Shown one piece after another: positions 15,016 through 41,547 of a stretch of 41,941 nucleotides of DNA. The notes under the pieces were generated by a model that made no database searches, was not told the DNA's origin, and saw only the letters and a program-made list of their open reading frames with translations. This DNA is from Armatimonadota bacterium (GTDB taxonomy: Bacteria > Armatimonadota > Zipacnadia > UBA1398 > JAKPQA01). Each line of letters begins with the position of its first letter. Position 1 is the first letter of the stretch. The stretch spans positions 1 to 41,941 of the forward strand of contig JAKPQA010000365.1 in the NCBI GenBank assembly GCA_029547025.1. Reading direction: 5' to 3'. The position numbers were made by a program, and so were the translations under genes.

Positions 15016-17094
15016 CTACCGCAGTGCGGCCAGCCGGTCGAGCAAGGCTACCATATCCTCTCGGCCGCGGGTCGCCGCCCAGGCCGAGGGCGTGCCGCCC
15101 GCCGAGTCATGGGCCCCGCAGTCTGCGCCGGCGTAGAAGAGAGCACGCACCACATCGCCTTGGCCCTCCGCGACGGCCCAGTGCAGGGGGGAGGCTCCGC
15201 GTGTATCGCGGGCTGTTGGGTTCGCGCCGCGCCTGAGGAGTAGCTTCACCACGCCCGTGTGCCCCCCGTAGGCCGCTCGGTGGAGAGGCGTCCACCCGAA
15301 CAGAGCCGACGAGCCAATGTCGACCCCCTTCGAGAGCAGCCGGTCCACCGCTTCTTCATCGCCATCGGCTGCGGCGTTGCTCAGGTCGAGGACCGGATCA
15401 GTGGGTGCCCCTTCGGACCGGAGAGCCACGGGCGCCACACCCGCCGGCAGCAGAGGCTGGTCGAGAGACGGGTCGATCTCGTACCCCGTGGCCGTTGCGG
15501 TACCCGCCGCGACGACGCGCACTCGCAGGCTGGCCGAGGGGTGCGCATGCAGCCGCAGATGCGTTTGCGCGGCGCCAACCTGTCGCGCTGTAACGCCACT
15601 CGGGGACAGCACTGCCGCAAGCACCGAGATGCTGGAGCCATCGTCTGTCGCGGATAGACCGGCGAGGAGAACGCCGGGCGCGCTCGAGTCCAGCGCGGCG
15701 CCGACCACACGCTCCCAGCGCTGACGCTGGAGCGACTCCGCCTGGTTGGCAGCGGCGGGTGGGCTCCTCTGGTCGAGAAATCCGTCGGCGTCGGCGGTTC
15801 GTACCAGCACGGACTGGACCACCAGCCGAACCGGCGCGCGCAGAACGCCAGACAGGTCCTTTTGGGCTCGTGCCACCGCCTCCGGACCGAATGCCGTCGG
15901 AGTTCGGACGACGGCCGTGACCACCGGGGTGGGTCCCCCCGTGTCCTGGGTGACATCGACGAGGACCGCTCCACGCACACTTTCGAGCCATCGGCTCAGC
16001 CTGTCGTTTATGACCGAGAGCCTCCTGGCCTCCTCGTCAACGGCCTCACGTTTCCTCTCGTCTTCTGGCCGGAGGAACACGGGTCCGTGCGCGTCCGAGT
16101 CGCTGGAGACCACGGACCGGACGATGAGCCGCGCTCGCGCGTCCACCTTCCGCCGAAGCGCGGACTCCATCCGGGCGACGCTGGCCGCCTCGTACGGCCT
16201 GGGCGAGATGACGGTGGCGGTGACCACGAGCTGTCCCTGGCGTTCCTCGTGACTCACGTCATCCAGCCACGCTCCGGTAGTCTCCAGGACCTGCTGACGT
16301 AGTACGGTCCGGACGCCTTCAGTGAGTCGCCGCTCGCGGAACAGCCCGAGTAACGTCTGGGTCATGTAGGCCCCAACGAGCATGAGGGCGACGATGTGGA
16401 CAAGCATCCTGCGAACCGGTGAGGCGGGCGCGACGCCAGTTGCCGCCGATGCGTTGTCGGCATCGGTGCCCCGGTGCAGGCCGACGAAGATGAATGCGGC
16501 GGCGCCGACCGTCTCGATGGCCAGGAAGTTGGCCGCGAAGAGGAGGAACGCGCCGCCAGCCCATTCCCACCGATGCCCGGCGAGGCAGATGCCGCACGTC
16601 GCGAGCGGGGGCACCAACGCCGTCGCAATGGCTACCCCCACGAGCGCAGGGCTCACTTTCGGGTCGATCGTCGCGTACGCGGCCGCGAGTCCCGCGGCGA
16701 GAGCGACGATGAGGTCGTAGAGGGTCGGCTTGGTGCGTGCCAGGATCTCGGATCCGTAGCCGAGGTGCAGCGGGACCAGCCCGATCAGGGTCGCCAAGCC
16801 CACGGCGATGATCACGCCGACGAGCTCAGTGGCCGCCGCGCGGCGTAGGATGCGCGTGTCGCCCGTGGCCACGCCGAAGGCGACGCCGATGATCGGGCCC
16901 ATCAGCGGAGCCACCAGCATGGCCCCGATCACGACCGCCGCGCTGTTTGCCATCAGTCCGTAGGCCGCGATCACGGTCGAGACGATCGTGAGAACAATGT
17001 ACCCCGCGTGGCGCGAGGAATGCGTCGAGACCGCCTGTCGCACTTCCTCTCGCCGCGCCGGCGTGACCCAGTACCGTTGGGGACGAAACCGCAC
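15016..17094 (-). CDS. DUF389 membrane protein with threefold repeat domain and ankyrin repeats
   Basis: This 692-residue protein starts at a GTG with GGGAGG six bases upstream. Residues about 30-185 are a DUF389 membrane domain (five or six helices; SAAVVIGAMLVAPLMGPIIG is the family hallmark), followed by a further helix pair and one near residue 235. Residues about 255-560 contain three divergent copies of a roughly 100-residue unit, each with a V-x-A-x-V-x-[ST]-P strand, a helix around an Ala-Arg/Gln-rich segment and a second strand ending in RxV or QSV. Residues about 570-690 carry about three ankyrin repeats (GWTPLHRAAYGGHTGVVKLLL, GASPLHWAVAEGQGDVVRALF). DUF389 has no settled biochemical role. 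The gene lies 31 bases after the MscS-type gene and is probably cotranscribed. Confidence 0.85.
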   Translation of the reverse strand: MRFRPQRYWVTPARREEVRQAVSTHSSRHAGYIVLTIVSTVIAAYGLMANSAAVVIGAMLVAPLMGPIIGVAFGVATGDTRILRRAAATELVGVIIAVGLATLIGLVPLHLGYGSEILARTKPTLYDLIVALAAGLAAAYATIDPKVSPALVGVAIATALVPPLATCGICLAGHRWEWAGGAFLLFAANFLAIETVGAAAFIFVGLHRGTDADNASAATGVAPASPVRRMLVHIVALMLVGAYMTQTLLGLFRERRLTEGVRTVLRQQVLETTGAWLDDVSHEERQGQLVVTATVISPRPYEAASVARMESALRRKVDARARLIVRSVVSSDSDAHGPVFLRPEDERKREAVDEEARRLSVINDRLSRWLESVRGAVLVDVTQDTGGPTPVVTAVVRTPTAFGPEAVARAQKDLSGVLRAPVRLVVQSVLVRTADADGFLDQRSPPAAANQAESLQRQRWERVVGAALDSSAPGVLLAGLSATDDGSSISVLAAVLSPSGVTARQVGAAQTHLRLHAHPSASLRVRVVAAGTATATGYEIDPSLDQPLLPAGVAPVALRSEGAPTDPVLDLSNAAADGDEEAVDRLLSKGVDIGSSALFGWTPLHRAAYGGHTGVVKLLLRRGANPTARDTRGASPLHWAVAEGQGDVVRALFYAGADCGAHDSAGGTPSAWAATRGREDMVALLDRLAALR

Positions 17095-17125
17095 AGCATG
17101 CCTCCCTCACGCGCCGGCGCCACCC

Positions 17126-20100
17126 TCATCCGGCGCCTGGCACGTCATCGATCCCGCCGCGCGTCCGCACGTGGATATCGCGCTGCGGGAATGGAATCTC
17201 GATGCCTTCCTTGCGGAACTCCTCGAGGATCCGCGCTGCGAGGAGGCTGCGGACGGACACGGCCGCGCTGGAGTCCCGCCCGCTCAGCCATGCGAGAAGT
17301 CGTAGGTTCACCGCGCTGTCCCCGAAGCCAGTCACCATGGCCACCGGAGCGGGGTCGTCCAGAATCTCCGGGCTCGCGTCCGCCGCCCTCAGCAGCACCT
17401 GCTGGGCCATCACTACGTCGGTCGAGTAGGCGACCCCGATGTCGATCTCGCATCGCACCTTCTGGTCTGCTGCAGCGAAGTTGGTCACCTTCTCTGAGAT
17501 GAGTGAAGAGTTGGGCAGTACATGACGTGTGTTGTCAAACGCGCGGAGCGTGGTGCTGCGGAGACCGATCTGTACCACGAAGCCTTTGAAGCCACCCGCC
17601 TCGATCAGGTCGCCCATGACGATGGGGCGTTCGACGAGGAGGATCAGCCCGGACACGAAGTTGCGGACCACGTCCTGTAGGCCGAAGCCCAGCCCGATGC
17701 CCGCCATCCCGGCGAACACGGTCAGCACGCTCCACTGGAAACCGGCAACGAGCATGGCCCAGAGCACACCGACGGTGCATGCTGCGTAGAACCACAGATG
17801 GGCCAAGGCATAGCGAGGGCCTTCGCCCACACGCAACCGCAGCCCGGGGGACGCGCCGATGAGGCGCTGTGTTACCCGGCCGATGTAGATGAAGATCCAG
17901 ACCAGCACCACGGCGCGCAGCAGGCTGAGGAGCGACACCTCGGTCCCCTGGACACTCACGGCGCCTCGAGAGAGGGCCGTGTATGCGTATTCCAAGTGCG
18001 GACGATGGACGCCCCACGCCTGCGCGGCCGCGTAGCAGACGGCCAAGGCCACGCCGGTTCGCGTGATGGCGCGGATGAGACCCCAGCCGACGTCCTTGAG
18101 CTCGCGGATCTCAGCCTCGTCGGGGTCCGCCGTGCCGGCGTCCGCGTCGGCTGGCACTCTTTCGGCCGTATGGCGGCCGATCAGGCGCCACAGGTAGTAG
18201 CCCACATAGAGCGCGACGCCAGTCCAGAGCAGCCCCTTGGCCGCCACATGCGCCAAGCTGCCGTAGCCGAGCAGAAGCGAGACCACCACCACGGCCGAGG
18301 AAGCGGCGGCATAGCTGTCGGCGTGGCCCAGGATCCGGCGCCGAGGGGGGCTATCGGCGAGCGCCACGAGGATAGCCGGCCGGACGCGCCGCATGTGCCG
18401 CAGTGACAGGACGAGGAAGCTCACGGCGAAGACGGCCCGCATGGTCACCGTGGCTTCCGGGTCTGCGTGGCCAGCGGCGACGAGGGCCGCATCGGCTAGC
18501 AGGGCGAGGGCTCCCAGCCATCCGGCCGCCAGGTAGATCCGATAGGCCTCGCTCGTGTCCCGGTCGGGCAGCCACAGCCGCCACTCACAGTCGGGCGCGA
18601 TGGCCACCCGCAGGAACCAGCGCCATGCCACCAACGCCGCCACAAGGCTGGCCGCGGTTGTGAGGAGCCATAGGTCGTACACCGGCCGGCACACGCCCCA
18701 CGACAGGGCGCCCATAGAGCCGGCGACAGTCAGGGCCACCAGGCTTCGCGCCCCGACGCGAATCCGCCAATGCCGGTCGTCCGCAGAGCCACCCCCGGGG
18801 CCGCCCGAAGCCGCGAACCTCCGTATCACTGAGAGGGCCAGGACTGCCGCCAAAAGCACGCCTGTGACGAACAGCGCCCGCGGATGCACGGCGTCGGCCG
18901 AATCGCGGGACGCCTGCCACTGACTCCCGATGGACGCCAGCCGGTCGTCGGGGTGGACGAGAGCCGAGGCCAGGCTCCGGACGCCCAACCAGACGGCGGT
19001 GCCCAAGCTCAGCCATGACTGCGCCGACAGCGGTGTGGCCCCCTGGCGGAGCAAGCTCCTCTCGCCCGCCTGACGAATAGCCGACTCCAGCTCCAGGGCC
19101 AGGTCCGAGGCCAGTTCCACGTTCTCGGAGACGGTCGACATGGACTCGAGGAGCACCTGGCGAGTCTGCTCCGCCGTGCTCCGGCACCGATCGAGATTGG
19201 TGATCGTCTCGCGGCGCAGACGGCCCAGCGTGCCCGAGCCCTGTGAAGCCGCGTCGTCCCATGACGGCCCGGTGACTGCCCGCGCATCGGCCAAGAGCCG
19301 GTCGTAGCGTGCAAGCCGCCTCTGGATGGCGACATAGGCCTGCTGGAGCGACTCGAACACGGACTCGTACTGCAGGCCCCTCTCCCCGAGCGCCTCGACG
19401 CGCAGCCGCGCGTCTCGTACGAGCTTGGCGCCGGCGCGCACGTCGCGGGGCTCTCGCCTCAGGCGGGACACGAGCTCGCGGTGCACCGCCCGGGCATCGG
19501 CGAGCTCAACCTGCCGCGCTGCCAAGGCCCGACGGCATGCGGCCAACTCCACCCGCGAGATCTGCGCCAGGATCTTCAGGGCGGTGGGGTCCACCTGCGC
19601 TTGCGGCGAGGGCTGCGGCTCCGTGCCGGACGCGGCGGCCGCCGCGGAGATTGACTCCTCGAGCACCCGCAGGCGACTCTCGCCGAGTCGCTGGCTCATT
19701 TGCTCGGCCTGGGCCGTATCAACGGTCGCCTTGGGTGAGTCAGCGGGCGGAGGCCGCTCGGGTGCGGTCTCCGCCTCCGTGGCGCCCTCTGTCTCGGCCG
19801 GCCCGCCCATGGGTGGTGGCTCGGAGGCGTCCGCTCTAGTGCCGGCTTCCCCAGACGTCGATGACTCCGGCTTCATTTGCGGCGGCGCCTCCCGCCGGTC
19901 GCCAGGGCTAGCCGGTGGCGTCTCGTCCTCTGTCTCCGGAGCGGGAGTCACGGGAGGGGCGACGTCGCCCTGGGTCTCGGTCTCGCGATGGCCGGGAACC
20001 GGCGCCGGGCTTCGCTCATCCTCGCCAGGGCCACCAGGTACCTCCTCCTGTGCCGGCGGAGGCGATCCACTGCCATACGACGCCGGTGGGCCACTGGGCG

Positions 20101-20296
20101 CCTGGATCGCCGCCGCGACCAGCGGCGCCACGGCGACGCCAGGCGGGAGAGGCGCAGCGCGCGGCAGGCCGTGTGCCAGCGGGACGGCCACCACGATGCC
20201 CAACGCAACAGCCGACAAGGCGGCCAGACGCCGCGCGCCGCCCCAACCGCGTGGGGCGGCCGACCGGTCGTCAGAAGTAGTACCAGATCGACCCAT
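17126..20296 (-). CDS. Large MscS/MscK-type mechanosensitive channel
   Basis: This is a 1056-residue protein. An N-terminal signal or anchor (residues about 20-45) is followed by a Pro/Glu/Thr-rich low-complexity region (about 60-210) and a long helical, coiled-coil segment (about 230-430). About ten membrane helices follow (from about 470). The MscS core comes last: GIGLGFGLQDVVRNFVSGL near residue 865 is the pore-lining helix, then VERPIVMGDLIEAGG and the beta domain with PNSSLISEKVTNF. Such channels open under membrane tension to release solutes. The ATG overlaps the upstream aminomutase-family gene by 26 bases, with a GGGAGG block 12 bases before it. The layout resembles MscK but the periplasmic part is Pro-rich and unlike it. 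Confidence 0.9.
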   Translation of the reverse strand: MGRSGTTSDDRSAAPRGWGGARRLAALSAVALGIVVAVPLAHGLPRAAPLPPGVAVAPLVAAAIQAPSGPPASYGSGSPPPAQEEVPGGPGEDERSPAPVPGHRETETQGDVAPPVTPAPETEDETPPASPGDRREAPPQMKPESSTSGEAGTRADASEPPPMGGPAETEGATEAETAPERPPPADSPKATVDTAQAEQMSQRLGESRLRVLEESISAAAAASGTEPQPSPQAQVDPTALKILAQISRVELAACRRALAARQVELADARAVHRELVSRLRREPRDVRAGAKLVRDARLRVEALGERGLQYESVFESLQQAYVAIQRRLARYDRLLADARAVTGPSWDDAASQGSGTLGRLRRETITNLDRCRSTAEQTRQVLLESMSTVSENVELASDLALELESAIRQAGERSLLRQGATPLSAQSWLSLGTAVWLGVRSLASALVHPDDRLASIGSQWQASRDSADAVHPRALFVTGVLLAAVLALSVIRRFAASGGPGGGSADDRHWRIRVGARSLVALTVAGSMGALSWGVCRPVYDLWLLTTAASLVAALVAWRWFLRVAIAPDCEWRLWLPDRDTSEAYRIYLAAGWLGALALLADAALVAAGHADPEATVTMRAVFAVSFLVLSLRHMRRVRPAILVALADSPPRRRILGHADSYAAASSAVVVVSLLLGYGSLAHVAAKGLLWTGVALYVGYYLWRLIGRHTAERVPADADAGTADPDEAEIRELKDVGWGLIRAITRTGVALAVCYAAAQAWGVHRPHLEYAYTALSRGAVSVQGTEVSLLSLLRAVVLVWIFIYIGRVTQRLIGASPGLRLRVGEGPRYALAHLWFYAACTVGVLWAMLVAGFQWSVLTVFAGMAGIGLGFGLQDVVRNFVSGLILLVERPIVMGDLIEAGGFKGFVVQIGLRSTTLRAFDNTRHVLPNSSLISEKVTNFAAADQKVRCEIDIGVAYSTDVVMAQQVLLRAADASPEILDDPAPVAMVTGFGDSAVNLRLLAWLSGRDSSAAVSVRSLLAARILEEFRKEGIEIPFPQRDIHVRTRGGIDDVPGAG

Positions 20297-22046
20297 ACTC
20301 GGCGGGATCCTCCCCGATGCTCTCAAGCCGCGCCAGGTAGTCGAGAACCGGTACGTCAACGCTGACATAGGGCTGGCTGGGGGCAATGCCCTTTTCCCAC
20401 GGGTGGAATTCGTAGACCCGCGAGCCGTTTGGGAGCACCGCGAGCAAGTCACGGTGTTGTGCCGCCCTCAGGTATACCTTGCCGAGCGCCGGGATGTTGA
20501 CAACCGCTTCGTCTGTCCGCCGCGTTCCCGGGAGCAGACGCGCCTCCTCCTTCTGCTCCTGGAGTATGCGCGCAATGGGCACTCGGTAGTCCAGCGTCTC
20601 GGCCTTGCCCTTGGGGGCGAAGGTATAGTACGGATCGACTCCGACCCGCCGCAGCAGCATGCGGAGGCGCGCCGTCTCGAACCGCCGTGAAGCATAGAAC
20701 GTGTAGACGACCTGGTTGTAGATGCCGATCCCTCGCGACCGCAGGCGGGCGATGGCGGCGACCATTTCGGGCGTGACCTCGTAGGGGTGCTGAACGTGCG
20801 TGACTAGTAAGATCTCGCGGTGTCCGGGGGAGCGAAGGCTGCCCAACAGGTCGGCCAGGGAATGGGTGATCCGCATGGGGAGCGTCACGGGGATTCGCGT
20901 GCCGATCCGGACGACGTTGAGCGACGCAATCCCGCGAACGCGTCGGAGTATCCTGGCCAGCGCGTCGTCGGGCATGGCGAGGGGGTCCCCACCCGTGATG
21001 AGCAGCTCCTGGATGGCCGGGTGGGCCGCGATCCAGTCGCAGGCGGCCTCGATCTGCTCCCAGGGCGCCAGGGCTTCGCAGGAGCCGGGCCCGGTGACCT
21101 CCCAGTTCCGCTGGCAGTAGACACAGAACTGCGAGCAACTGCGGTATGGCTTGAGGATGGCCACGGCCGGGTAGCGCCGAGTTACCAGCGGGATGGGAGA
21201 GGTCTCTCCCTCCCGCATGAAGTCCATGGCGCCCGGCCCGCCGTCGCGCATGTGCTCTCCCCACGCCGACGCGCACTGACAGGAGGGCAGGACCTGCGCC
21301 CTGAGAGCCCGGTCTCTGCCCGAGTCTGCTACCTCGTCAAACAGCGAGGCATAGTAGGGGGTCACCGCGAATGGCATACCCTCCGCTGTGGCCCGGCGAA
21401 CGCCCTCACGCTCGTCGGCCCGCAGCGCGACGGCCCGATCCAGACTGTCGAGTCCCGCGATCACGTGCGCTGCGTGCCACTGCCAGTCGGCCCAGTCAGC
21501 CTCATCGCCCCCCAGGGCCGCCAGGACCTCCGCTCGCCGCACCGACCTCCGCGCGACGGCCTCCGGAGACAGGCCGTCCTCATAGCGCTCCATCCATGAG
21601 GCTGCCGACGTCCACAGCGCATCCAGCGCCACGCTCCGCTGCGCCGCACTGCCAGGGTCCTCGCCGCTCGGATCCTCGGCCAGCGGCCCCAGGCACGCCT
21701 TTCCCTGCAGGCCCTCCAACAGGTGAACCATCTCGGCGTGGAACCCCGGCTGAAGGTCGGGCCGATCCTGTCGAGCGGCGACGTCGAGAAGGGCCGAGAA
21801 GACGCTGAAGCCCGAGAGTGCTTCGGAGCGCTCGGAGATCATGCTGCACAGAGCGCGTCCGCAGTCCCTGACCGTGTGTCCGAGCTCGGTGTGCGGCACG
21901 GCCTCATAGGTGTGCCACTGGCACCGCGAGATGACGTCGTACAGGAGTGGACGTGCTGAGGGGGATCCGTGAAGCGAGGCGATAGCGGGCAGAAGGGGTC
22001 CCGCTGCCGATCGAACGTGCTCCGCCGTGTACGCGGCATTTCGCAT
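20271..22046 (-). CDS. Lysine 2,3-aminomutase-family radical SAM protein, divergent
   Basis: This 591-residue protein has a strong AAAGGAG seven bases before the ATG, which excludes upstream in-frame starts. Residues 1 to about 270 match nothing I know; they include an SCQC pair. The radical SAM core has Cys304, Cys308 and Cys311 in CxxxCxxC, followed by ITGGDPL and IGTRIPVTLPMRIT, all typical of KamA. Lys523 in VVNIPALGKVYL aligns by context with the PLP-binding lysine of aminomutases, where the usual PGGGGK is changed to PALGK. Known relatives convert L-lysine to beta-lysine or act on glutamate. The substrate here is unproven. It is translationally coupled to the MscS-type channel; no ablB-like acetyltransferase is in the window. 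Confidence 0.85.
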   Translation of the reverse strand: MRNAAYTAEHVRSAAGPLLPAIASLHGSPSARPLLYDVISRCQWHTYEAVPHTELGHTVRDCGRALCSMISERSEALSGFSVFSALLDVAARQDRPDLQPGFHAEMVHLLEGLQGKACLGPLAEDPSGEDPGSAAQRSVALDALWTSAASWMERYEDGLSPEAVARRSVRRAEVLAALGGDEADWADWQWHAAHVIAGLDSLDRAVALRADEREGVRRATAEGMPFAVTPYYASLFDEVADSGRDRALRAQVLPSCQCASAWGEHMRDGGPGAMDFMREGETSPIPLVTRRYPAVAILKPYRSCSQFCVYCQRNWEVTGPGSCEALAPWEQIEAACDWIAAHPAIQELLITGGDPLAMPDDALARILRRVRGIASLNVVRIGTRIPVTLPMRITHSLADLLGSLRSPGHREILLVTHVQHPYEVTPEMVAAIARLRSRGIGIYNQVVYTFYASRRFETARLRMLLRRVGVDPYYTFAPKGKAETLDYRVPIARILQEQKEEARLLPGTRRTDEAVVNIPALGKVYLRAAQHRDLLAVLPNGSRVYEFHPWEKGIAPSQPYVSVDVPVLDYLARLESIGEDPAEYGSIWYYF

Positions 22047-22294
22047 CGGTGTCTCCTTTCGAGGCATCGACGCCGCACCGGTGCGACCGCGCGGGCCGGT
22101 CGCCCGGCCATCAGGGGCTCCGGCGCCTCCGCGCGATGGCGCGACGCACACCACCTCCGCCCCAGTGCGCGCCGCCCCGACGGCTCGCCGGGCGGTACCG
22201 CACTGAGCAGCATATGTGCCACGGCCCTACGGCCGCGGGGTCTACTATGGACCCATTCGCCGACACAGCGCCGAGTCCTCTGCACGGCCCTCCC

Positions 22295-24100
22295 TCAGTC
22301 CCGTACGGCGGAGACGATCTCGGCCGCATCGGTGTAGCACGAGGGCCCGAAGGGCATGATGAGGTACAGCCCTCGGCACTCGTGGAAGGCCACTCGCGCC
22401 AGTTCCACAGCCCGATCGAGTCCGCGCCGTCGCTGCGCGTCGCGACCAGGCAGTCGCGCGAGCTCGTCCAGCACGCACGGTGGCACATCGATACCGGGCA
22501 CACGGCCTGACGAGAGAGACTCGGCCATTCGTTGGCTCGTGATGGGTAGAACGCCGATCAGGGCGCGAAGGGGCAGTCCGGCCAGGTCCGTAGCGAGGGC
22601 GCGGAGCGCCTCGATCGCGAAGATAGGCTGCGTGAACACGAACTCAGCCCCCGCCGCGACCTTCCGCTGGAGCCAGCGCAGCTGTGGCGGGCCACCGCGG
22701 GTGACGCAGCCCGCACAGAAGTCGGGTGGATCGCCCAAGGCATCGCCGTTGAGCAGCTCGCCATCGCGTAGTGAGGCCACCAAGCGCAAGAGTTCGACCG
22801 AGCTACGCAGATCGGTGGCACGTTTGGCGATATCGCCAAACGGCCCCATGGAGGGCGAGTCGCCTGTCAACGCCAGTAGGCCGCGGAGGCCGAGGTCCCA
22901 AGCGCCGATCAGTCCTGAGTGCAGGCGCAGCACGTTGGAGTGCGTCACGGATACGTGCGGTATTGCCGGGACGCCGGTGGCATCCTGCACGGCGGCGGCG
23001 ACGACACACGCGTCACGCCCGACGCTCGCTGCAGGGTTATCGGGGACATCGAACAGATCGACGCCAGCCGCGGCGACGGTGCGGGCCCCTTCCACAATCT
23101 CGGCGAGGCTTCGTTTCCGATCGGCCCGGATCTCGACGGAGATCAGGGGTCGGTCCGCGGTGATGACATCGCGGACTCGATTGGGAGCCGGCGGTGTGGT
23201 TGGCGGCTCCGGGCCCACCGATATGGATCGTGCCGCGATGGGCGGCCGAGGTGGCACGCGCATGGGCGCGACGGCTGCGGCCATGGCGCGGACATGGTCG
23301 GGAGTCGTCCCGCAGCAGCCACCGATCACGGCCGCGCCCAGTCCGATGAGTCTGCCGGCGACCTCCGCGAACTCACCGGGGCCAAACTCATAGGTGACGG
23401 CGCCCCGAATGATCTGGGCGTTGCCCGCGTTGGGCGCGGCGGCGAGGGGAAGGCTAGTTAGCTGAGCCAGCTCGCGGAGTGTGCGCTGGGTCTCGGCAGG
23501 ATGCTGGCAGTTGGCGCCCAAGGCCACAGCACCGCACGCTTCGGCCTCCTCGACCAGCCGTCGCAGGCGCTCGTGGCGCGCCGCGCCCGCCGTGAGCCGT
23601 CCGACCTGCAAGATCACCGGTAGCCCCGTCGCGCGAGCCGCTTGCAGGGCCGCTCGGGCCTCGCGCAGATCAACGAAGGTCTCCAGCACCAGGGCGTCGG
23701 CCGCGGACAGGTACTCACACTGCTCGGAGTAGATCCGGACCAAGTCCTCGGCGGGGTAGTCGTCGGCGCGGAAACCGAGCGAGAGTGGTCCCACGCATCC
23801 CCAGACGGCACAGTCCACCCCGGCAGCGTCTCGTGCAATCTGGACGCCGGCTCGGTTGATCACAGCACATTCGCCGGTGAGCTCATGCTCACTCAAGCAA
23901 AGCGAGTTCGCGGCATAGGTGTTGGTTACGAGGGCCCGGGCGCCCGCGGCCACGTAGGCCTGGTACAATGTGAGCACCCGTTCGGGATCGCGGGTGTTGA
24001 GGGCCTCCACTGGTCCGCCGGCCGTTCCCGGGCCGTATAGGTTGGTCCCGATGGCCCCGCAACGCACCAGGGGCTGTTCGCCAGGTTCGGGGAGCTGCAT
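22295..24100 (-). CDS. Bifunctional homocysteine S-methyltransferase / methylenetetrahydrofolate reductase
   Basis: This is a 601-residue fusion, as in YitJ-like proteins. Residues about 1-285 form the Pfam S-methyl_trans domain, with zinc ligands Cys198 (GANC) and Cys262/Cys263 (GGCCGT). Residues about 305-595 form the FAD-dependent methylenetetrahydrofolate reductase barrel, with SVEIRADRKRSLAEIV at its start and LALTGDSPSMGPFGD in the FAD region. The pair makes 5-methyl-THF and could pass the methyl group to homocysteine. The ATG follows GAGAGG at nine bases. A TATGAT hexamer on the minus strand near 24135 may be its -10 box, but the -35 is poor. It is separated from the aminomutase-family gene by 248 bases. 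Confidence 0.93.
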   Translation of the reverse strand: MQLPEPGEQPLVRCGAIGTNLYGPGTAGGPVEALNTRDPERVLTLYQAYVAAGARALVTNTYAANSLCLSEHELTGECAVINRAGVQIARDAAGVDCAVWGCVGPLSLGFRADDYPAEDLVRIYSEQCEYLSAADALVLETFVDLREARAALQAARATGLPVILQVGRLTAGAARHERLRRLVEEAEACGAVALGANCQHPAETQRTLRELAQLTSLPLAAAPNAGNAQIIRGAVTYEFGPGEFAEVAGRLIGLGAAVIGGCCGTTPDHVRAMAAAVAPMRVPPRPPIAARSISVGPEPPTTPPAPNRVRDVITADRPLISVEIRADRKRSLAEIVEGARTVAAAGVDLFDVPDNPAASVGRDACVVAAAVQDATGVPAIPHVSVTHSNVLRLHSGLIGAWDLGLRGLLALTGDSPSMGPFGDIAKRATDLRSSVELLRLVASLRDGELLNGDALGDPPDFCAGCVTRGGPPQLRWLQRKVAAGAEFVFTQPIFAIEALRALATDLAGLPLRALIGVLPITSQRMAESLSSGRVPGIDVPPCVLDELARLPGRDAQRRRGLDRAVELARVAFHECRGLYLIMPFGPSCYTDAAEIVSAVRD

Positions 24101-25250: not shown

Positions 25251-27743
25251 GTGGCAATGCGCTGTGGGTGGGCCGCCTGCGCGGCGGCGCTGGCGGGGCT
25301 GTGGACGGCCCATGCGGCTGACGCGGCGCCGCGTGTCGAGTTCTGGGTCTCGCCTGACGGCTCCGATGCCGGACCGGGCACGCGGGTTCAGCCGTTCCGG
25401 ACGGTCGAGCGCGCGCGCGACGCTATCCGCGCCGCGAGGTCCGTGGCCGGTCCAGCCACCGTGGTGCTCAAGGCCGGCACCTACCGGCTCGCTCAGCCGC
25501 TCCACCTCGGGCCGGAGGATTCCGGCGCGGCCGGCAGTCCCGTGGTCTACCGCGCCGAGCGGCCGGGCACCGCGATCCTCTCCGGTGGCCGTCCCATTAC
25601 CGGGTGGGTGAAGCAGCCGGATGGCGTCTACCACGCAGTCGCGCCCAAGGCGAACTTCCGGCAGCTCTACGTGAACGGCGTGCGCGCCACCCGGGCGCGC
25701 GGGGGGCCGCTGCCCGATGCTGAGCCGTGGGGCGAGCTCCGCGCTACGATCAAGCCACTCCGCGATGGCGCCATGTATGCCCCACTCACGGATGTGGCTG
25801 AGGCCGGCTTCCGCACCTCCAACGGCGCCATGGCGAAGTGGCGGAACCCGTCGGACATCGAGCTCGGCTTCTTCAACTACTGGAGCCACATGATCTGCCG
25901 GGTCGAGAGCATCCGGCCCGATGGCGACGGCGCCATTCTCTCGATGGCGCAGCCAGGGTTCCTTTTCGCTTGCCGCAAGGGCGGTGTGCAGGCCGGCATT
26001 CCCGATTACGTCGAGAACGCACTCGAGCTGCTCGATGAGCCCGGCGAGTGGTATCTCGACCGATCCGAGGGAGTTGTCTACTACAAACCGCGACCGGGCG
26101 AGGACCTGCCGACGGCCGAAGTCGTCGCGCCCGTGCTGACTGAGTTGGCGCGGGTTGAGGGCACGCCGGACGCGCCCGCTCACGACATCCGGTTTGAGGG
26201 CATCACGTTCAGCCACGCCACATGGCTCCGGCCGAGCGAGTACGGCCACCCGGATGTACAGGCGAACTTCGTCTTCACCGCCGACATGCCGGTCTTCACG
26301 CGGCCCGAGTTCGAGAAAGGGTATGTGACGATCCACAGCGAGCTGGCGAAGAGCCCGGCGAACGTCGTCGTGCACGCCGGACATCGCGTGGAGTTTTCCG
26401 GCTGCACGTTCCGCCACCTGGGCGGTGCCGGGCTCGACCTCGAGTACGGCGCCCAGCGCAACGCCGTCACCGGCTGCCTGTTTGAGGACATCTCGGCCAC
26501 TGGCATCCAGGTAGGCGACGTGCAGCGCGATGACCATCACCCGAGCCGGCCGGAGCTCACCGTTCGTGGCAACCGGGTCACGAACAATCACATCCACCGC
26601 ATCGGTGTCGAGTTCGAGGACAGCATCGGCATCTTCTGCGGGTACACCGATAGCACGCTGATCGCGCACAACGAGATCCACGACCTGCCCTACTCGGGCG
26701 TCTCCGTGGGCTGGGGCTGGGGCGAGGAGGACGCGGGCGGCGGCGCGTACGTCATGCCGTTCAACTACGAGACACCGACGGCGGCGCGGCTCAATCGGAT
26801 CGAGTTCAACCATATCCACCACTGCATGCAGCGGCGGAGCGATGGGGGCGGCATCTACACCCTCTCCCGCCAGCCGGGAACCGTCATCCGAGGGAACCAC
26901 ATCCACGACAACGGCCCCGGCGTGCCGGGCGGGATCTACCTCGATGAGGGCAGCTCCATGATCGAGGTCTCCAATAACCTGGTCTACGACGTTGCGGCGG
27001 CGATGAACTACAACAACCACGCCCAGAACCGCATCGCTACGTGCGAGGAGCGCGACAACGTCTTCGGTCTGACCGAGTCGGCACCCGGCATCGTCGGGCG
27101 CGCCATGCTGTGCCGCAACGGGCTGCTGGAGGTCCCGCACTCCGCGGAGCTCGACCCCCCGCAGCTCACGGTTGGGGCCTGGGTGCGCGTGCCGGCCATC
27201 CCATCGGGCTGGGACCCGCGCCAGTGGCTGGTCTGCAAGGCGCCCAACGAGTTCGCCGATGGCAACTACTCATTGATTATCCATGGCGACAAGGTCGGCG
27301 CCTATCTGAATATCGGCGGCGGGCAGGAGAACTACCACGAGGCCTCGAGTCCCACCGGCACCATCCGCGTCGACACCTGGCAGCACCTGGCGATGACGTA
27401 CGACGGTGAAGCGCTGCGTGTGTTCTGCGATGGTCGGCAAGTCGCCGAAACGGCCATCGGAAAGGCTCGGACGACCACCGACGTGCCCCTCACGCTCGGC
27501 GGCCGGCAGGACCGCTACGGCCCCGGGTTCCTCCGCGGCGCGCTCGATGATGTGCTGCTGTTCGACCGCGCCCTCACGGCCGACGAGATCGCCAGTCACC
27601 ACGCCGCTGGGTTGCGCGGCGAGCGGATCCAGGGCGCGGCGGCTGAGTGGACATTCGACGACCTGCCGCCCGAGCCGCCAGTGGCGAGGTGGGTTCGGGC
27701 CCACGCGGGGCTCGAGCCGGCGTACCGGCACCTGGGACGGTGA
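25251..27743 (+). CDS. Secreted beta-helix glycan-active protein with LamG domain (GH141-like)
   Basis: This is an 830-residue protein beginning GTG (an ATG two codons later is equally placed), with a GGGGGGA block eight bases upstream. A signal peptide ends near residue 24 (AADAA). Then FWVSPDGSDAGPGT and PFRTVERARDAIR open a right-handed parallel beta-helix domain (about 30-600), the start pattern of GH141 enzymes and other beta-helix lyases. Repeated NxI/NxH rungs (HNEIHDLPYSGVSVG, NHIHDNGPGVPGGIY) continue it. Residues about 615-790 are a LamG/concanavalin-type domain (AELDPPQLTVGAWVRVP, LTLGGRQDRYGPGFLRGALDDV). It probably attacks or binds a decorated polysaccharide outside the cell. GH141 is a hypothesis. 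Confidence 0.85.
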   Translation: MAMRCGWAACAAALAGLWTAHAADAAPRVEFWVSPDGSDAGPGTRVQPFRTVERARDAIRAARSVAGPATVVLKAGTYRLAQPLHLGPEDSGAAGSPVVYRAERPGTAILSGGRPITGWVKQPDGVYHAVAPKANFRQLYVNGVRATRARGGPLPDAEPWGELRATIKPLRDGAMYAPLTDVAEAGFRTSNGAMAKWRNPSDIELGFFNYWSHMICRVESIRPDGDGAILSMAQPGFLFACRKGGVQAGIPDYVENALELLDEPGEWYLDRSEGVVYYKPRPGEDLPTAEVVAPVLTELARVEGTPDAPAHDIRFEGITFSHATWLRPSEYGHPDVQANFVFTADMPVFTRPEFEKGYVTIHSELAKSPANVVVHAGHRVEFSGCTFRHLGGAGLDLEYGAQRNAVTGCLFEDISATGIQVGDVQRDDHHPSRPELTVRGNRVTNNHIHRIGVEFEDSIGIFCGYTDSTLIAHNEIHDLPYSGVSVGWGWGEEDAGGGAYVMPFNYETPTAARLNRIEFNHIHHCMQRRSDGGGIYTLSRQPGTVIRGNHIHDNGPGVPGGIYLDEGSSMIEVSNNLVYDVAAAMNYNNHAQNRIATCEERDNVFGLTESAPGIVGRAMLCRNGLLEVPHSAELDPPQLTVGAWVRVPAIPSGWDPRQWLVCKAPNEFADGNYSLIIHGDKVGAYLNIGGGQENYHEASSPTGTIRVDTWQHLAMTYDGEALRVFCDGRQVAETAIGKARTTTDVPLTLGGRQDRYGPGFLRGALDDVLLFDRALTADEIASHHAAGLRGERIQGAAAEWTFDDLPPEPPVARWVRAHAGLEPAYRHLGR

Positions 27744-30967: not shown

Positions 30968-33900
30968 CTATGCCTCCAGTCTGAGCACCACAATACCCCG
31001 CGCGGGCAACGTCAGTCGCACACGGCGGCCTCCCTCCACGCGGTAGATGCAGTCACCCGAGCGGTAGACTTCCTCGAGCCCGGTGACTCGGTCTGTGGTC
31101 CACCCGCGGGGCACGCGAAGCGATACGGTGTGCGGCACAGTATCGGTGTTCGTCGCGATCAGCCCCAGCTCGCCCTCGCGGGACTCCCACGCCGAGTGCA
31201 GCACCGCCGGCATGGTCGCGACCTGTCCGGGATGCCACTCGGCCGAGAGCTCGGGCGCATCGCCCGCCATCACCATCGGCCGGAGCATCCGGCCGTAGAG
31301 GCAGAAGGGCCTGGCGGCAAGGTAGGCCTTCGCCAGTGCCGCGAAGTACGCCGTCTCCTCCTCCCGATGGCCGAGCTGGGTGTCATCGAGCCAGCCGATC
31401 TGGGTGCCCCAGACCAGCATCTGCGCGTTCTTCTGCCGGAAGGTCAGGGCATGTTCGTCCGAGTCCGGCGGCGTGTTGTAGCGGCCGTAGAGGATGCCGT
31501 AGCCCGAGTAGACATGGTGGAACATGGGGATCAAGCCCGAGGCCGCGAACGCGGCATTGCACGTCAGGCAGCCGTCGAACAGGTCCAGGAATGGCTCCGC
31601 GTGGTCCTCGGTCGTGAGCGCCAAGTCGGGCTTTGCCGCCCGGCCGCGCTGCTGGCAAAGCTCGACGAGCTTCCGGTAGCTCGGCACCCAGTACTCGCCG
31701 GTGCCTGCCGCGTGCGGGTGGGTCGGATCGAAGCACCGCATGGGGTAGTACGACGCGATCTGGTCGATGTAGACGCCATCGACGTCGAGCTCGCGCGCCA
31801 TGCGCTCGACGATGCCAGCTACCCTCCTCTGCCAGGCGGCGGTGGATGGGCACTGCACCGAGTGGTTCTGCTGGCCCCAGTTCTCGATGTACCGTTCCTG
31901 GTTCACGTCCTTGGTGCATGACTGCTGCGCGCCCTCGTTGGCGAAGCTCTCGGTGTCCGTGTCCCACAGCCGGCCGTTGATGTAGGGCACCACGCGTATG
32001 CCGCCGGCGTGCATTCGCTGGATCTCGCCGGGGAACTCGTCCTTAGCTGGGAAGTAGTCGGGATAGTCGTCATCGAAGGGGATCTGGTGCCAACCGTAGC
32101 GCTGAATGGCCATCGGCACGCCGACAGCCTTGCTCCGTTCGATCGCCTGGTCGCTCGGCGCCGAGACGAACCACGCCCCAAGGTCCACGAACCACTTTGG
32201 GATGTCTTTCCGCTCGGCCAACGGCCCAAGCTGGCACCACTGCTGCTGCAGCGCCCACTGGCGGTAGAGCTCGCACGAGTCGATCCAGTCGCCCTCGAAC
32301 ACACCGATGGCCGTTTCATAGGGCAGCTCGAAGGTGCCCGGCTTGCCGGGCGTGTAGGGCGGGTAGTGTGTCGCGATGTATGAGAGCGACCGCCCCTCCT
32401 CCGGTCGGAACTTGAACCGCTTGTGCCACGCGGCTCCATCGTAGGTCGCGAAGTAGAGCGCCGAGTTGCCCGACTGCACCGACGACATCTGCATCTCCGC
32501 CGCGTGCGAGGGGTAGATCAGGTCCGGCGACTCGTTGATGAGCGGCTTCCGCTCGAGGTACCCAAGGAACCGCGGATACGCCACCGTGCCGGCATCCGGA
32601 TCCACCCGCAGCCCGCTCAGGTAGGGGAAGTCGATCTCCCACAGCGCCCACTTCGTGCTGAGCGTCTTGACACGGATGCTCCACAGCGACTGCCTGGCGC
32701 CGCGCCCGATCCGAGCGCTGACCTCCACGTCGGCGGCGCGGGGTTCGTCGCCCACGGCGATACCGCGCCAGCGGAGCTTGAGCTTGCGCCCATCCTCGGT
32801 CCCGTCGGCCTCGTGCTCCGACGGACTGGCCGAGGTGACCTCGGCGATGGTCCCGGCCTCGTCGCGGAACCGAAGCCGCCAGAGCCCGCCGCCCGCGGCG
32901 CCGGGTCCGAAGTCCCTGTCGCCGTTCGCCGCCCTGAGGCCGCGGACCGGGAAACCGTCCTCGGCCGGGCCGAGGAGAACAGACATCAAGTCGTTGCCCA
33001 CAACCTGCTGCGAGCCCGCCTCAGGTCCCTCCCCACTCACGAGTGCCGCCAAGTGCTTCACCGCTTCCTGTGAACGCTCGAGGTCGGACAGGTCCCCGAC
33101 GACCGAGCTGGTCAGCCCAAGTGCCGCTTCCGTCAGCAGGCGCGCGCGGCCTCTGAGGCGCGGGAGGCGGTCGCGGATTCGCTCCACCTCGAACTCCAGC
33201 GGCCGAACTCTCGCGCTCAGGCGGAGTGCCTCGAGCGCCCGAGCCTGAGCCGTCAACGCCGAGCCGTCACCGCCCGACGGGCCGACGTAGAGCCACCCGC
33301 TGCAGTGGTAGCGTGTGTCGCTCATGGTCACCCAGGGCCCGTGGATGTAGCTCCCCCAGCCTCCGGCCAGCGCCAGGTCCTCGTCGTAGATCCGGCATGG
33401 CATGCCCATGAGGCCGATGGCATGCCGCGCGTCGAACATCCCCGCCAGCGTGGTGCTGACGTACGACGCGTTGGCGCCCGTTAGCGTGCCCGTCCGGTCG
33501 GGCGACGAGACGATCCACGAGGGGTAGCGGAGCTTCTTGTAAACCCGCTGGAACAGGTTCAGCTCCCCCCAGGAGCGAGGCTCTGGCTGCGTGACGAGCG
33601 CCTCGATGCGCACCAGCGGACTGCCGGCGAAGTAGGTGTAGAGGTAGGTGACCTCGGGCCTCCCCGGTGCCGGAGCGCCTGCGGCATCGCAGAACATGGC
33701 GTGGGCCCGCACGGTGCACGCCAGCGGCCGCTGGTCGATGATCTCGACGCGGGGCGAGCGGTCGTCGCGGGCGAAGTACATCCCTTCGATGCCGATGCGG
33801 TCGCCGCACATCTGGAGCACATCCGGCTCGCCGCCATCGGCGTACTCGATCCGCGCCAGCGCCCCCGCATTGGCGGTCAGCGAGTGCACGGCCGTGAAGG

Positions 33901-34258
33901 CGCCGGTCGAGACGCGGATCTCCCCGTCGGTCTCCTCGACGGTGAGCTGTCCGAACCTCGCTTCCTCCGCGCCGGCCTCAAAGCGAATCTCAAACCGCCG
34001 CTCCCCGCTGACCGGAGGGAGCCACGCCAGTTGCGGACCGGCCAGACCCGCAAGGACCTGCGTGGCGCACGGCCCCCGCTCCGCATCGTAGACGCGGGGA
34101 ATCGTGCCGTCGTCAGCGCCGGCCAGCACACGCAGTCCGTCGACATCGACCGTGAGCACCAGCGGCGTCTGCCAGTCGTCTGGGACCGTCGCGTCGATGG
34201 TGGCCGCGGGATTGCCGCCTGCCGCTAGTGCGCCGATGAGTGCATATGTAGTGAGCAT
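30968..34258 (-). CDS. Secreted DUF6259-type glycoside hydrolase-like protein
   Basis: This is a 1096-residue protein. The ATG has AAGGGA about five bases upstream and begins a short signal-like segment (MLTTYALIGALAAGG). A large N-terminal beta-sandwich (to about residue 600) leads into a TIM-barrel. Candidate catalytic residues are Asp in DVDGVYIDQIA (about 824-834) and Glu in TTEDHAEPF (about 880). DLGAWFVSAP (about 695) and WDTDTESF fit the DUF6259 family, related to GH-A-like clan enzymes. It probably hydrolyses a polysaccharide outside the cytoplasm. The signal peptide is weak, so secretion is less certain than for its neighbours. The C39-like peptidase gene ends 46 bases upstream on the same strand. 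Confidence 0.8.
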   Translation of the reverse strand: MLTTYALIGALAAGGNPAATIDATVPDDWQTPLVLTVDVDGLRVLAGADDGTIPRVYDAERGPCATQVLAGLAGPQLAWLPPVSGERRFEIRFEAGAEEARFGQLTVEETDGEIRVSTGAFTAVHSLTANAGALARIEYADGGEPDVLQMCGDRIGIEGMYFARDDRSPRVEIIDQRPLACTVRAHAMFCDAAGAPAPGRPEVTYLYTYFAGSPLVRIEALVTQPEPRSWGELNLFQRVYKKLRYPSWIVSSPDRTGTLTGANASYVSTTLAGMFDARHAIGLMGMPCRIYDEDLALAGGWGSYIHGPWVTMSDTRYHCSGWLYVGPSGGDGSALTAQARALEALRLSARVRPLEFEVERIRDRLPRLRGRARLLTEAALGLTSSVVGDLSDLERSQEAVKHLAALVSGEGPEAGSQQVVGNDLMSVLLGPAEDGFPVRGLRAANGDRDFGPGAAGGGLWRLRFRDEAGTIAEVTSASPSEHEADGTEDGRKLKLRWRGIAVGDEPRAADVEVSARIGRGARQSLWSIRVKTLSTKWALWEIDFPYLSGLRVDPDAGTVAYPRFLGYLERKPLINESPDLIYPSHAAEMQMSSVQSGNSALYFATYDGAAWHKRFKFRPEEGRSLSYIATHYPPYTPGKPGTFELPYETAIGVFEGDWIDSCELYRQWALQQQWCQLGPLAERKDIPKWFVDLGAWFVSAPSDQAIERSKAVGVPMAIQRYGWHQIPFDDDYPDYFPAKDEFPGEIQRMHAGGIRVVPYINGRLWDTDTESFANEGAQQSCTKDVNQERYIENWGQQNHSVQCPSTAAWQRRVAGIVERMARELDVDGVYIDQIASYYPMRCFDPTHPHAAGTGEYWVPSYRKLVELCQQRGRAAKPDLALTTEDHAEPFLDLFDGCLTCNAAFAASGLIPMFHHVYSGYGILYGRYNTPPDSDEHALTFRQKNAQMLVWGTQIGWLDDTQLGHREEETAYFAALAKAYLAARPFCLYGRMLRPMVMAGDAPELSAEWHPGQVATMPAVLHSAWESREGELGLIATNTDTVPHTVSLRVPRGWTTDRVTGLEEVYRSGDCIYRVEGGRRVRLTLPARGIVVLRLEA

Positions 34259-38172: not shown

Positions 38173-41100
38173 CTATGCCTTCCAGTCGAACTGGATCAGC
38201 TCCACGGGCGCCAGGACGAACCTCACTCGCTCGTCATCCTTGCCGAAGTACCCGCCCCACCCCACGCTGATCGCGCTGATCGCGTCGAGATCGAGCCGAC
38301 TGTTGGTATCCTTCGACCATCCGGCCAGCGAGAAGCTCTCGAGCCAGATGACCGACTCCTGCCAGCCCGGTTCCGACAGCGCGCGGCCCGCCGACGCCAG
38401 GTAGACCGCGCCGCCCTTCTCGTGTAGCAGAACCAGGAGTGAGGTGCCGCATCCAGCCTGGTCGTCGGGCGCGAACGTACGCAGCCTGAGGGCTTCGAAG
38501 CCCCGCAAGTCAGTGCTTGCCGGAAGCTTTGCGCTGGCGAAGCAGTGGCTGTCGATGCCGCCTTTCTGGATGGTGGCATCGATGACGACGGAGCCCGGCC
38601 GGTCGCCGCCCATGCCTGCCGTCGCGGGCGCGGTCGAGCGTGTGACATGCTCGGGCCCGGCGGCCTCGAACCGCACCTCGGCGCCCACGACGTCTGTCAG
38701 TGGCGTCGAGCTGGCCACGGGGCCGAGCGGCCCCTGCAGCTCCCGCCGCTTGCGTTCCACCGCGGTCGGGAACACGACGAACGTGGCGCTGTAGGGCTCC
38801 AGGGACAGCGACACCGCCCGTCCGCCACTGGCTTCGGAGGCGTCCCCAACCGAGATCGTGCCTGTGGCCGGGTCCCACAGCTCCGCGTCGCCGTCGGCCG
38901 AGAAGGTGCACTCAGCCTGGACCGGCGCCGCCGAGTCGTTGATGACGTAGTAGGCTTCGCGCCCTTCGATGCTCCAGTGGGCGTAGCGGAGCGCGCCGGA
39001 AGCATCGCCCGCGGAGAAGTCGCGCTCGAGCAACTGGTCGAGCAGCCGAGGCACGGCCGGGAGGAGCGTCTCGGGCACGTAGACCGCCACGCCGCCGGCG
39101 GCGTTGGTGTTGGCGATGATCTCTCCGCCCTCGCCCGCCTCCTCGCGGGCCGCGAGTCCCAGCATCCTCGCCGACGCGGCTCCCACGCGAGCGTCGCGCA
39201 GGTCCTCCGTGCTGTTCGCCGGGATGTCACCGGCACAGATCACGAGCCCGCCCTGGTCCCAGAACTCGCCGAGCCGCCGCCAGGCCTCGGCGGGGATTGT
39301 GTCGGTGGCCGCCAGCACCACCGCGCGGAAGCGCAGCGGGCCAGCGACGAGGGTGCCGTCCTCGACCTTGGCCTCGGCGATGGCGTGCGAGGGGATCACC
39401 TGGAAGTCCCGCTGGTTGCGGAACAGCAGGCCCTGGCACTCCTGCCACAGTCGATCGATGCGATGCACATCGGGTGAGCGCGTCGCCCCCTGCGTGGCCG
39501 GCGTCATGTGCGCCCAGACGCTCTCGATGGGGTATAGCACCGCCACATCCGTCACGGGCTTCCCGCCCGTCAGCATGGTGCCGCAGCGCCCGACGAACTC
39601 GTTCACGTGGCGCATCTGCGCCGTCTCCAGGTCGCGCCACGAGTAGTAGGACGTCGTCGTGTTTACGCCGGCCACATACAGGCGATTACAGGTGCCGACG
39701 ATGTCCGGTACGCCCACGGGCTCAACAGGCCTCGTGTCGCCCGCGGGCCGGTAGACCTGGGCGAAATCGGAGGTCTCCGACATGACAATGGGTGCTCCGT
39801 GCAAGTGAGCCACCGAGGAGAGTAGCTTCGCGATATGCCATGGCACGTTCGGCGGCGACGAGGTCAGGCAGTCGATGCCCGGGTAATCGAGGCGCTCCGC
39901 GCAGCGGTAGAAGTCCCCGTAGAAGATACAGTGGTTGGCGATACTCTCTTCCCACAGCAGATGGCCGCCTGAGCGTATCCCCGCCTGGTGGCACCAGTCC
40001 TGGATCTGTCCGAAGAATGCATCCGCCGTGCGCTGGCCCACGTGGTCCCAGAAGTCGCACCGCGCGCGGTGGCCGTCAGGCCCGGCATCAGCCACCAGCG
40101 CCGGCAGCCAGGGCGTGATGTCGTAGCCCTTGGCCGTCCGGAACGTCTGGGCGAAATCATCGGCCCACGGCACGGCCGCCCACGGTTGCTCTTTCATGAA
40201 CCCGGACATCAGCGAGGGCTCGTCCGTGAAGGTCGCGACGAACAGGTCCTTCAGCTCCGGCAGGCGCTTCACGTATTCCTCGTGCGTGAGCTCAATGAAC
40301 CGCTTCACCGGCCTCGGGTCCATGATGTTGATGTACGGCTGAGCGCGGAAGACGTTCGACACGGCGTGGGTGCCTTCGTGCAGGACGTTCTCGACGAACA
40401 CGAACACGTGCCACTCGCCGGCGGGCGGCGACCAGCGCAGGGTACCCTCGGTGATCGACCCCGACAGGTCCGTGGGGTCCTCCGCGTCGATCTGCCCCGC
40501 TTCGACCGGGCAGGCCACGGCCAGTCGTACCGGTCCGGGCGGCAGGGCGAGCTCGACCGCCTTGCCGTCGGTCGTCGTCTCCGCGATGTGCAGGCCCTTG
40601 GCCTGCCACTCGGGATGCTCCCTCAGCACCAGGCCCCCCGCGTTACCGCTGGGGTAGCCCTCCTCATCGTAGAGCCACATCGCCATACCCAGCTGGTGAG
40701 CCAGCCGTGCCCCGTGGACAAACGAGTCCCACAGCTCGTCGCTCTGGAGGTACTGGCTGAACGAAACGTTGCAGACCACGCCGCCAAAGCCCTGCTCGAG
40801 CAGTGTGGTGAAGAACGTCTCGTGCTGGTTTGGGTCGGCCGGCAGGCCATGGACGATCTTGAGGATCCGCCGGTCGGCGGGCGGGTTGGCGAAGCGTTCG
40901 CGGAGCTCGGCGCCCGTTGGCTTCATGCTCTCGATCAGCCTCTCAACGTAGTCCACGGGGAGCAGTGACACGGGTCCCTGTGGCATGCCCCCGGGGCCGC
41001 CGTGGTCGACGACACGGATGGCGAGTGTGTTCACCCCATCGGGGTCGATGCATTCCGCGGGCACGTCGTACCTGCGCGCAATCGTCGAGGGGTTCTGTGC

Positions 41101-41547
41101 GCCCTCACCAGTCGAGCCCACCTGCCGCCCGTTAACGAAGGTCGTGTCGACATCGTCCACCGCACCCATCCGCAGAACGAGGTCGATGCCGCGCCACGCG
41201 GCAGGGATGCGGAAGCTCATCCGGTACCACGCCACGCCGTTGTAGGCGTTCAGCTTCGACACTGCCGGATCCAGCTCGGGTGACGGCATGCCCTCGTAGG
41301 ACTCGGTGATGCCCTGATCCTCCCAGAAGCCCGGGACTCTCAGGGTCCGCCACCCCGAGTCGTCGAGGTTGGTGCTGGCCCACCCGTCCCTCTCACCCGT
41401 CTGGGCGGGGTCCGTATGGAACCGCCACTCACCCTCGAGGTTGCCGCCAGAGAGTGCCAGCTCCCGCGGCGCAAGCTGAGCCTGGCACGCCGCCGCCCAC
41501 ACGCACAACACGGCCGTCGCGACGATACAGGTGATCCGCGCCGACAT
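38173..41547 (-). CDS. Secreted GH106-like alpha-L-rhamnosidase candidate with GH2-like N-terminal domain
   Basis: This is a 1124-residue protein. The ATG reads MSARIT, with AAGGGG eight bases upstream, and opens a signal peptide (about 4-24). The N-terminal jelly-roll (about 40-200, WRFHTDP, WYRMSFRIP, LAIRVVDHGG) resembles GH2 sugar-binding domains. The catalytic barrel has the GH106 hallmark WLYDEEGYPSGNAGG near residues 290-304, FTDEPS near 441 and SGGHLLWEES near 528. GH106 contains alpha-L-rhamnosidases. A class-I glutamine amidotransferase-like segment may follow the barrel (about 700-830), with beta-sandwich domains at the C-terminus. Rhamnose as substrate is inferred from the motif, not proven. 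Confidence 0.85.
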   Translation of the reverse strand: MSARITCIVATAVLCVWAAACQAQLAPRELALSGGNLEGEWRFHTDPAQTGERDGWASTNLDDSGWRTLRVPGFWEDQGITESYEGMPSPELDPAVSKLNAYNGVAWYRMSFRIPAAWRGIDLVLRMGAVDDVDTTFVNGRQVGSTGEGAQNPSTIARRYDVPAECIDPDGVNTLAIRVVDHGGPGGMPQGPVSLLPVDYVERLIESMKPTGAELRERFANPPADRRILKIVHGLPADPNQHETFFTTLLEQGFGGVVCNVSFSQYLQSDELWDSFVHGARLAHQLGMAMWLYDEEGYPSGNAGGLVLREHPEWQAKGLHIAETTTDGKAVELALPPGPVRLAVACPVEAGQIDAEDPTDLSGSITEGTLRWSPPAGEWHVFVFVENVLHEGTHAVSNVFRAQPYINIMDPRPVKRFIELTHEEYVKRLPELKDLFVATFTDEPSLMSGFMKEQPWAAVPWADDFAQTFRTAKGYDITPWLPALVADAGPDGHRARCDFWDHVGQRTADAFFGQIQDWCHQAGIRSGGHLLWEESIANHCIFYGDFYRCAERLDYPGIDCLTSSPPNVPWHIAKLLSSVAHLHGAPIVMSETSDFAQVYRPAGDTRPVEPVGVPDIVGTCNRLYVAGVNTTTSYYSWRDLETAQMRHVNEFVGRCGTMLTGGKPVTDVAVLYPIESVWAHMTPATQGATRSPDVHRIDRLWQECQGLLFRNQRDFQVIPSHAIAEAKVEDGTLVAGPLRFRAVVLAATDTIPAEAWRRLGEFWDQGGLVICAGDIPANSTEDLRDARVGAASARMLGLAAREEAGEGGEIIANTNAAGGVAVYVPETLLPAVPRLLDQLLERDFSAGDASGALRYAHWSIEGREAYYVINDSAAPVQAECTFSADGDAELWDPATGTISVGDASEASGGRAVSLSLEPYSATFVVFPTAVERKRRELQGPLGPVASSTPLTDVVGAEVRFEAAGPEHVTRSTAPATAGMGGDRPGSVVIDATIQKGGIDSHCFASAKLPASTDLRGFEALRLRTFAPDDQAGCGTSLLVLLHEKGGAVYLASAGRALSEPGWQESVIWLESFSLAGWSKDTNSRLDLDAISAISVGWGGYFGKDDERVRFVLAPVELIQFDWKA

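Follow-up and report, generated by a model that had tools for sequence, protein, structure and literature searches.

The window analysed here, the 41,941-nucleotide contig JAKPQA010000365.1 of assembly GCA_029547025.1 from an Armatimonadota bacterium (Zipacnadia; UBA1398; JAKPQA01), carries on its minus strand a gene for a KamA-family aminomutase, followed by genes for an MscS-type channel and a DUF389 membrane protein. The enzyme is predicted from its substrate-binding residues to be an acidic-substrate (glutamate) 2,3-aminomutase, and its product is probably beta-glutamate, a known osmolyte. With a probability of about 0.5, the trio constitutes an osmotic-adjustment operon in which glutamate is converted to beta-glutamate, with the MscS-type protein as outlet and the DUF389 protein as membrane partner. 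An initial annotation of the same genes had likewise proposed osmoadaptation, with lysine as the substrate and N-epsilon-acetyl-beta-lysine as the product. Its family assignments and its osmotic role have stood up to the present analysis; the lysine substrate and the acetylated product have not.

The aminomutase scores 297.4 bits against TIGR00238, the family of KamA radical S-adenosylmethionine (SAM) aminomutases, well over the cut-off of 199.2. Its AlphaFold2 (AF2) model has a predicted local distance difference test score (pLDDT) of 86 and is matched by Foldseek to the solved lysine 2,3-aminomutase (KAM; PDB code 2a5h) over 408 columns. The best start is an ATG preceded by GAAAGGAGACACCG. 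An alternative GTG frame extends to 22154 and gives 627 aa, with the added N-terminal residues predicted to be disordered (pLDDT <50); residue numbers follow this longer frame. The iron-sulfur cluster cysteines C340, C344 and C347 form a CxxxCxxC motif, R349 corresponds to the carboxylate-binding R134 of KAM, and K559 to K337, the lysine that holds pyridoxal 5'-phosphate (PLP). All of these residues are invariant in the alignment with homologs.

The substrate side chain would be met by a different set of residues. KAM grips the epsilon-amino group of lysine with two aspartates, D293 and D330. In the window enzyme, K515 aligns exactly with D293, and N553, ahead of a PLP-lysine loop that is one residue shorter, takes the place of D330. 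This K/N pair is common to all 80 homologs compared, including L032, where a stop splits the frame and leaves the pair in the following piece. The two aspartates are kept in ablA enzymes annotated on plasmids and in a paralog that adjoins ablB (L090), and the arginine enzyme blsG has Asp and Thr at these positions. The characterized glutamate 2,3-aminomutase presumably carries Lys332 and Asn369 at the K515 and N553 positions. Among the equivalog models, the window enzyme scores highest with glutamate, then lysine, then arginine aminomutase (196 > 166 > 151 bits); the lysine model (AblA, TIGR03820) gives 165.8 bits for a cut-off of 525, and the arginine cut-off is likewise missed widely.

Judged from the sequence tree, the long KamA enzymes (about 590 aa) are a clade of their own, with 81 sequences forming one side of a fully supported branch. 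The window enzyme has an N-terminal extension, helical and about 170 residues long, and the cluster motif CPQICVYCQRN. It resembles glutamate 2,3-aminomutase (eam, TIGR04368) in belonging to the KamA superfamily and in having Lys at the position of KAM D293, but differs in its separate deep clade, its extension, its motif and a score far below the equivalog cut-off. It is possible, if slightly doubtful, that the clade represents a second glutamate 2,3-aminomutase lineage and a general bacterial route to beta-glutamate, overlooked under the names lysine 2,3-aminomutase and KamA family protein. The long enzyme is widespread, with a relative encoded in at least 580 of at least 586 stretches from a scan of genome contigs, and the clade spans Desulfobacterota, Myxococcota, Acidobacteriota, Zixibacteria, Spirochaetota, Planctomycetota and other phyla. 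Within the host phylum, only the window organism has it at E <= 1e-80 (1 of 291 genomes), and the lack of another such genome suggests that it was probably acquired horizontally. A search of plasmids gave no match covering 80% of the query.

Two further observations concern KamA relatives. A KamA family protein of 704 aa on a Parabacteroides plasmid (L112:2302-4416) also has the K/N pair, with an annotated NhaC antiporter gene lying three genes downstream of its own. In a Latescibacterota genome (G061:C25), a long KamA gene (L029) and a short one encoding an enzyme similar to glutamate 2,3-aminomutase (L087, 595 bits for a cut-off of 650) are divergent and about 1 kb apart.

The three genes are tightly arranged (Table 1). 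The overlap of 26 bases between the aminomutase and channel genes and the spacing of 31 bases before the DUF389 gene, both reported in the initial annotation, were confirmed to the base, and a ribosome-binding site precedes each of the three starts. Translational coupling of the first two genes is likely, given the overlap. On the flanks, a gap of 248 bases separates the trio from a homocysteine-methyltransferase/methylenetetrahydrofolate reductase (MTHFR) gene, and about 320 bases separate it from an rplU frame; with such gaps the trio looks like a free-standing operon. In the upstream intergenic region neither an Rfam match nor a sigma-70-like site was found, and a scan for promoters and terminators returned nothing exceeding chance. 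In the host genome (6.3 Mb, 96% complete) one gene each of KamA, MscS and DUF389 was found, all at this locus.

Table 1. Features of the aminomutase locus in the window
Feature	Position	Strand	Basis or remark
KamA-family radical-SAM/PLP aminomutase, 591 aa	20271..22046	-	TIGR00238, AF2/Foldseek, residue mapping; ATG 22046, stop 20271
MscS-superfamily channel, MscK-like size, 1056 aa	17126..20296	-	PF00924, PF21082, PDB match MscK 7uw5, hydropathy; ATG 20296, stop 17126
DUF389 membrane protein with C-terminal ankyrin repeats, 692 aa	15016..17094	-	PF04087, Ank_2, hydropathy; GTG 17094, stop 15016
Aminomutase/MscS gene overlap, exactly 26 bases	20271..20296	-	
MscS-DUF389 gap, 31 bases	17095..17125	-	ribosome site GAGGGAGG ahead of GTG
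Intergenic region upstream of operon	22047..22294	-	likely promoter and leader

The second protein is recognized by PF00924 (76 bits) and PF21082 (50 bits), the MscS beta and C-terminal domains. It begins with a signal-like hydrophobic N-terminus and a Pro-rich region, continues with more hydrophobic segments, and ends in the MscS pore, beta and C-terminal domains. The best PDB match is MscK (7uw5), over residues 824-1100 of a 1108-aa frame; the MscK equivalog NF008438 reaches 178 bits for a cut-off of 991, and in the C-terminal part only. The protein is thus similar to MscK and MscS in its pore, beta and C-terminal domains, and to MscK in length, but its N-terminal two thirds are without a Pfam match.

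The third protein contains a full DUF389 domain, as in TIGR00341/DUF389 membrane proteins (PF04087, 139.7 bits, cut-off 23.9), and about seven hydrophobic segments are apparent from hydropathy. It departs from those proteins in its C-terminal ankyrin repeats (Ank_2, 72 bits), a feature absent from the initial annotation, and in the location of its gene in an aminomutase operon. A role as sensor or scaffold is a guess. The literature passages that matched DUF389 concern DUF3893 and DUF3892, which are different families. A defence-system reading was rejected, the PADLOC matches being confined to the ankyrin repeats. In an acidobacterial locus (L014:820-3903), DUF389 is fused behind a Na+/H+ exchanger (NHE) domain, a fusion that ties DUF389 to cation homeostasis. 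Similar frames of about 1040 aa occur in genomes G051 and G054, recognized by frame length and DUF389 score; the fusion architecture is that of L014.

The genes around the long enzyme were compared in 50 genomes that carry it. In seven genomes a ClC channel gene, usually a single one, lies no more than 5.5 kb from the enzyme gene (expected 0.19), three of these cases falling within one clade of the enzyme tree. The trehalose synthase TreT lies within 3.5 kb in four (expected 0.06). For MscS, three genomes have a gene within 4 kb (expected 0.39). NhaA, Kef-type antiporters, a P-type cation ATPase and an SLC12-like carrier each occur as single neighbours, and at one locus (L010) a glutamine synthetase gene follows the enzyme gene after 23 bases. 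In a control tally, ClC, NHE, P-type ATPase and TreT count 3, 2, 2 and 2, respectively, among near genes, and none of them is among the 25 commonest families of genes more than 4 kb away; with both lists ending at 25 families, the tally is only supportive. In one of the 50 genomes (L014/G049), from another phylum, all three families of the window trio lie within about 4 kb, in the order NHE-DUF389 fusion, long KamA, cytidylate-kinase-like gene, MscS and TreT. The recurrent feature is thus an enzyme accompanied by osmotic and ion-transport genes and no fixed cassette. These ion-channel and osmolyte neighbours strengthen the osmotic reading of the aminomutase operon.

Other neighbours were recorded as well. 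TreT lies within 3 kb of MscS in six genomes (G044, G049, G055, G059, G061 and G082; expected about 0.16). In Eisenbacteria (L050, L059, L062), the long KamA gene is flanked by genes for deoxyhypusine synthase and an RsmI-like methyltransferase, and in Desulfobacterota and Myxococcota (L013, L034, L040, L048, L056) it directly adjoins a class I/II aminotransferase gene.

The operon has a close precedent. A salt-induced MscS-kamA-ablB operon (ynaI-kamA-ablB), an MscS-linked form of the abl operon (ablA-ablB), is known from Ca. Methanoperedens (PMC11337218), and with it the window operon becomes a variant of a beta-amino-acid osmolyte operon with a mechanosensitive channel. Both have a KamA-family gene adjoining an MscS-type gene and may follow the same beta-amino-acid osmolyte logic; the window operon differs in its long K/N enzyme, its lack of ablB, its large MscK-like channel and the DUF389-ankyrin gene that follows. 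Beta-glutamate itself is an osmolyte that marine archaea contain in abundance (PMC1224877, PMC8269262), up to 730 mM in Nitrosopumilus (PMC8269262), and both beta-glutamate and beta-glutamine are established osmolytes (PMC1224877). Na+ riboswitches are found ahead of the genes ablA and eam (PMC9337991). In the proposed mechanism, the aminomutase, with the help of SAM, a [4Fe-4S] cluster and PLP, would shift the amino group of L-glutamate from the alpha carbon to C3. The resulting beta-glutamate would be a compatible solute that is metabolically inert and serves to balance potassium. Co-translated with the enzyme, the MscS-type channel may act as a tension-gated emergency outlet for beta-glutamate and other anions upon dilution. 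As a transporter or regulator, the DUF389-ankyrin protein would be a partner in the membrane that attends to the cation side of this balance.

Several observations weigh against this osmotic, glutamate-based reading. The window enzyme reaches 196.5 bits with the glutamate 2,3-aminomutase model TIGR04368, for which the cut-off is 650, and the nearest paralog similar to that enzyme (L087) has the Lys but a Thr in place of the Asn. Glutamate is linked to this residue pair through the Clostridioides difficile enzyme, which reportedly carries it (Ruzicka and Frey 2007). A scan of the window and of 18 relative loci gave no Rfam riboswitch match, whether Na+ or c-di-AMP. The clustering statistics are optimistic, as the families were picked after the loci had been inspected and some genomes are related. 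Gene order around the long enzyme is highly variable, with many relatives having no osmotic gene nearby. As to conservation of the trio, the exact KamA-MscS-DUF389 order was found nowhere beyond the window in 80 loci, 41 near-relative genomes and 291 genomes of the phylum; what does recur, in L014, is the company of the three families. The initial annotation had named a non-conserved trio as evidence against its own reading, and this objection holds in part.

Lysine is a very improbable substrate. The superfamily and fold are shared with lysine 2,3-aminomutase, and the MscS-kamA-ablB operon is a published precedent, but both lysine-binding aspartates are replaced throughout the clade and the AblA cut-off is missed by a wide margin. 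The ablB-like acetyltransferase that the initial annotation would have looked for is absent as well, with no TIGR03827 match in the host genome; among the 50 relatives ablB exceeds the cut-off in two, beside a short D-type KamA in one and away from the long gene in the other. With the wrong binding residues and no ablB, the lysine route to acetyl-beta-lysine is disfavoured, and it was discarded as a candidate. If glutamate is the substrate, a glutamine synthetase whose gene lies elsewhere in the genome could still turn the product into the final osmolyte, beta-glutamine or some other derivative. Glutamine synthetase makes beta-glutamine in Methanohalophilus, and the gene directly downstream of the enzyme in L010 is what such synthesis would need (PMC1224877). 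The window operon has no glutamine synthetase gene, however, and one was within the fetched stretch at only 3 of 80 loci, which leaves this derivative improbable.

A beta-amino acid made for some other purpose, such as a secondary metabolite, amino-acid fermentation or the modification of a protein in the way EpmB acts on EF-P, would render the neighbours incidental. The great variability of the neighbourhoods fits this idea, as do the aminotransferase genes directly upstream in several Desulfobacterota and the genes for deoxyhypusine synthase and an RsmI-like protein beside the enzyme gene in Eisenbacteria. ClC and TreT nevertheless cluster with the enzyme far over expectation in several phyla, and the window enzyme gene tightly overlaps a channel gene; we regard another purpose as unlikely, though worth keeping in view. 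That the trio is an accident, through chance neighbours or a misbinned contig, might be suspected from the solitary occurrence of the enzyme among the phylum genomes. The gene overlap and ribosome sites speak against it, as does the renewed meeting of the three families in L014. Obg lies on the trio contig and the host genome has no second full copy, which argues that misbinning is unlikely, with a small residual chance; as a whole, an accident is the remotest of possibilities.

Elsewhere in the window, the gene upstream of the operon (22295-24100) encodes a fused homocysteine S-methyltransferase/MTHFR that scores 408 bits for an equivalog cut-off of 453. Carbohydrate-active genes are found at 25251-27743, 30968-34258 and 38173-41583 (a GH141-like beta-helix with a LamG domain, DUF6259 and a GH106-like rhamnosidase).

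The pore water of anoxic sediments contains beta-glutamate, and the bacterial sources of this compound are poorly known. The more interesting claim is not the operon variant but what appears, from the residue pattern, to be a large, hidden clade of probable glutamate aminomutases under KamA and lysine-aminomutase names. If the long KamA clade does make beta-glutamate, misleading lysine-aminomutase annotations could be corrected, and the link between a beta-amino-acid solute, an MscS outlet and ion channels would become testable, starting from one purified enzyme. For many uncultured bacteria of sediments and digesters, production of beta-glutamate could then be read from the genome.

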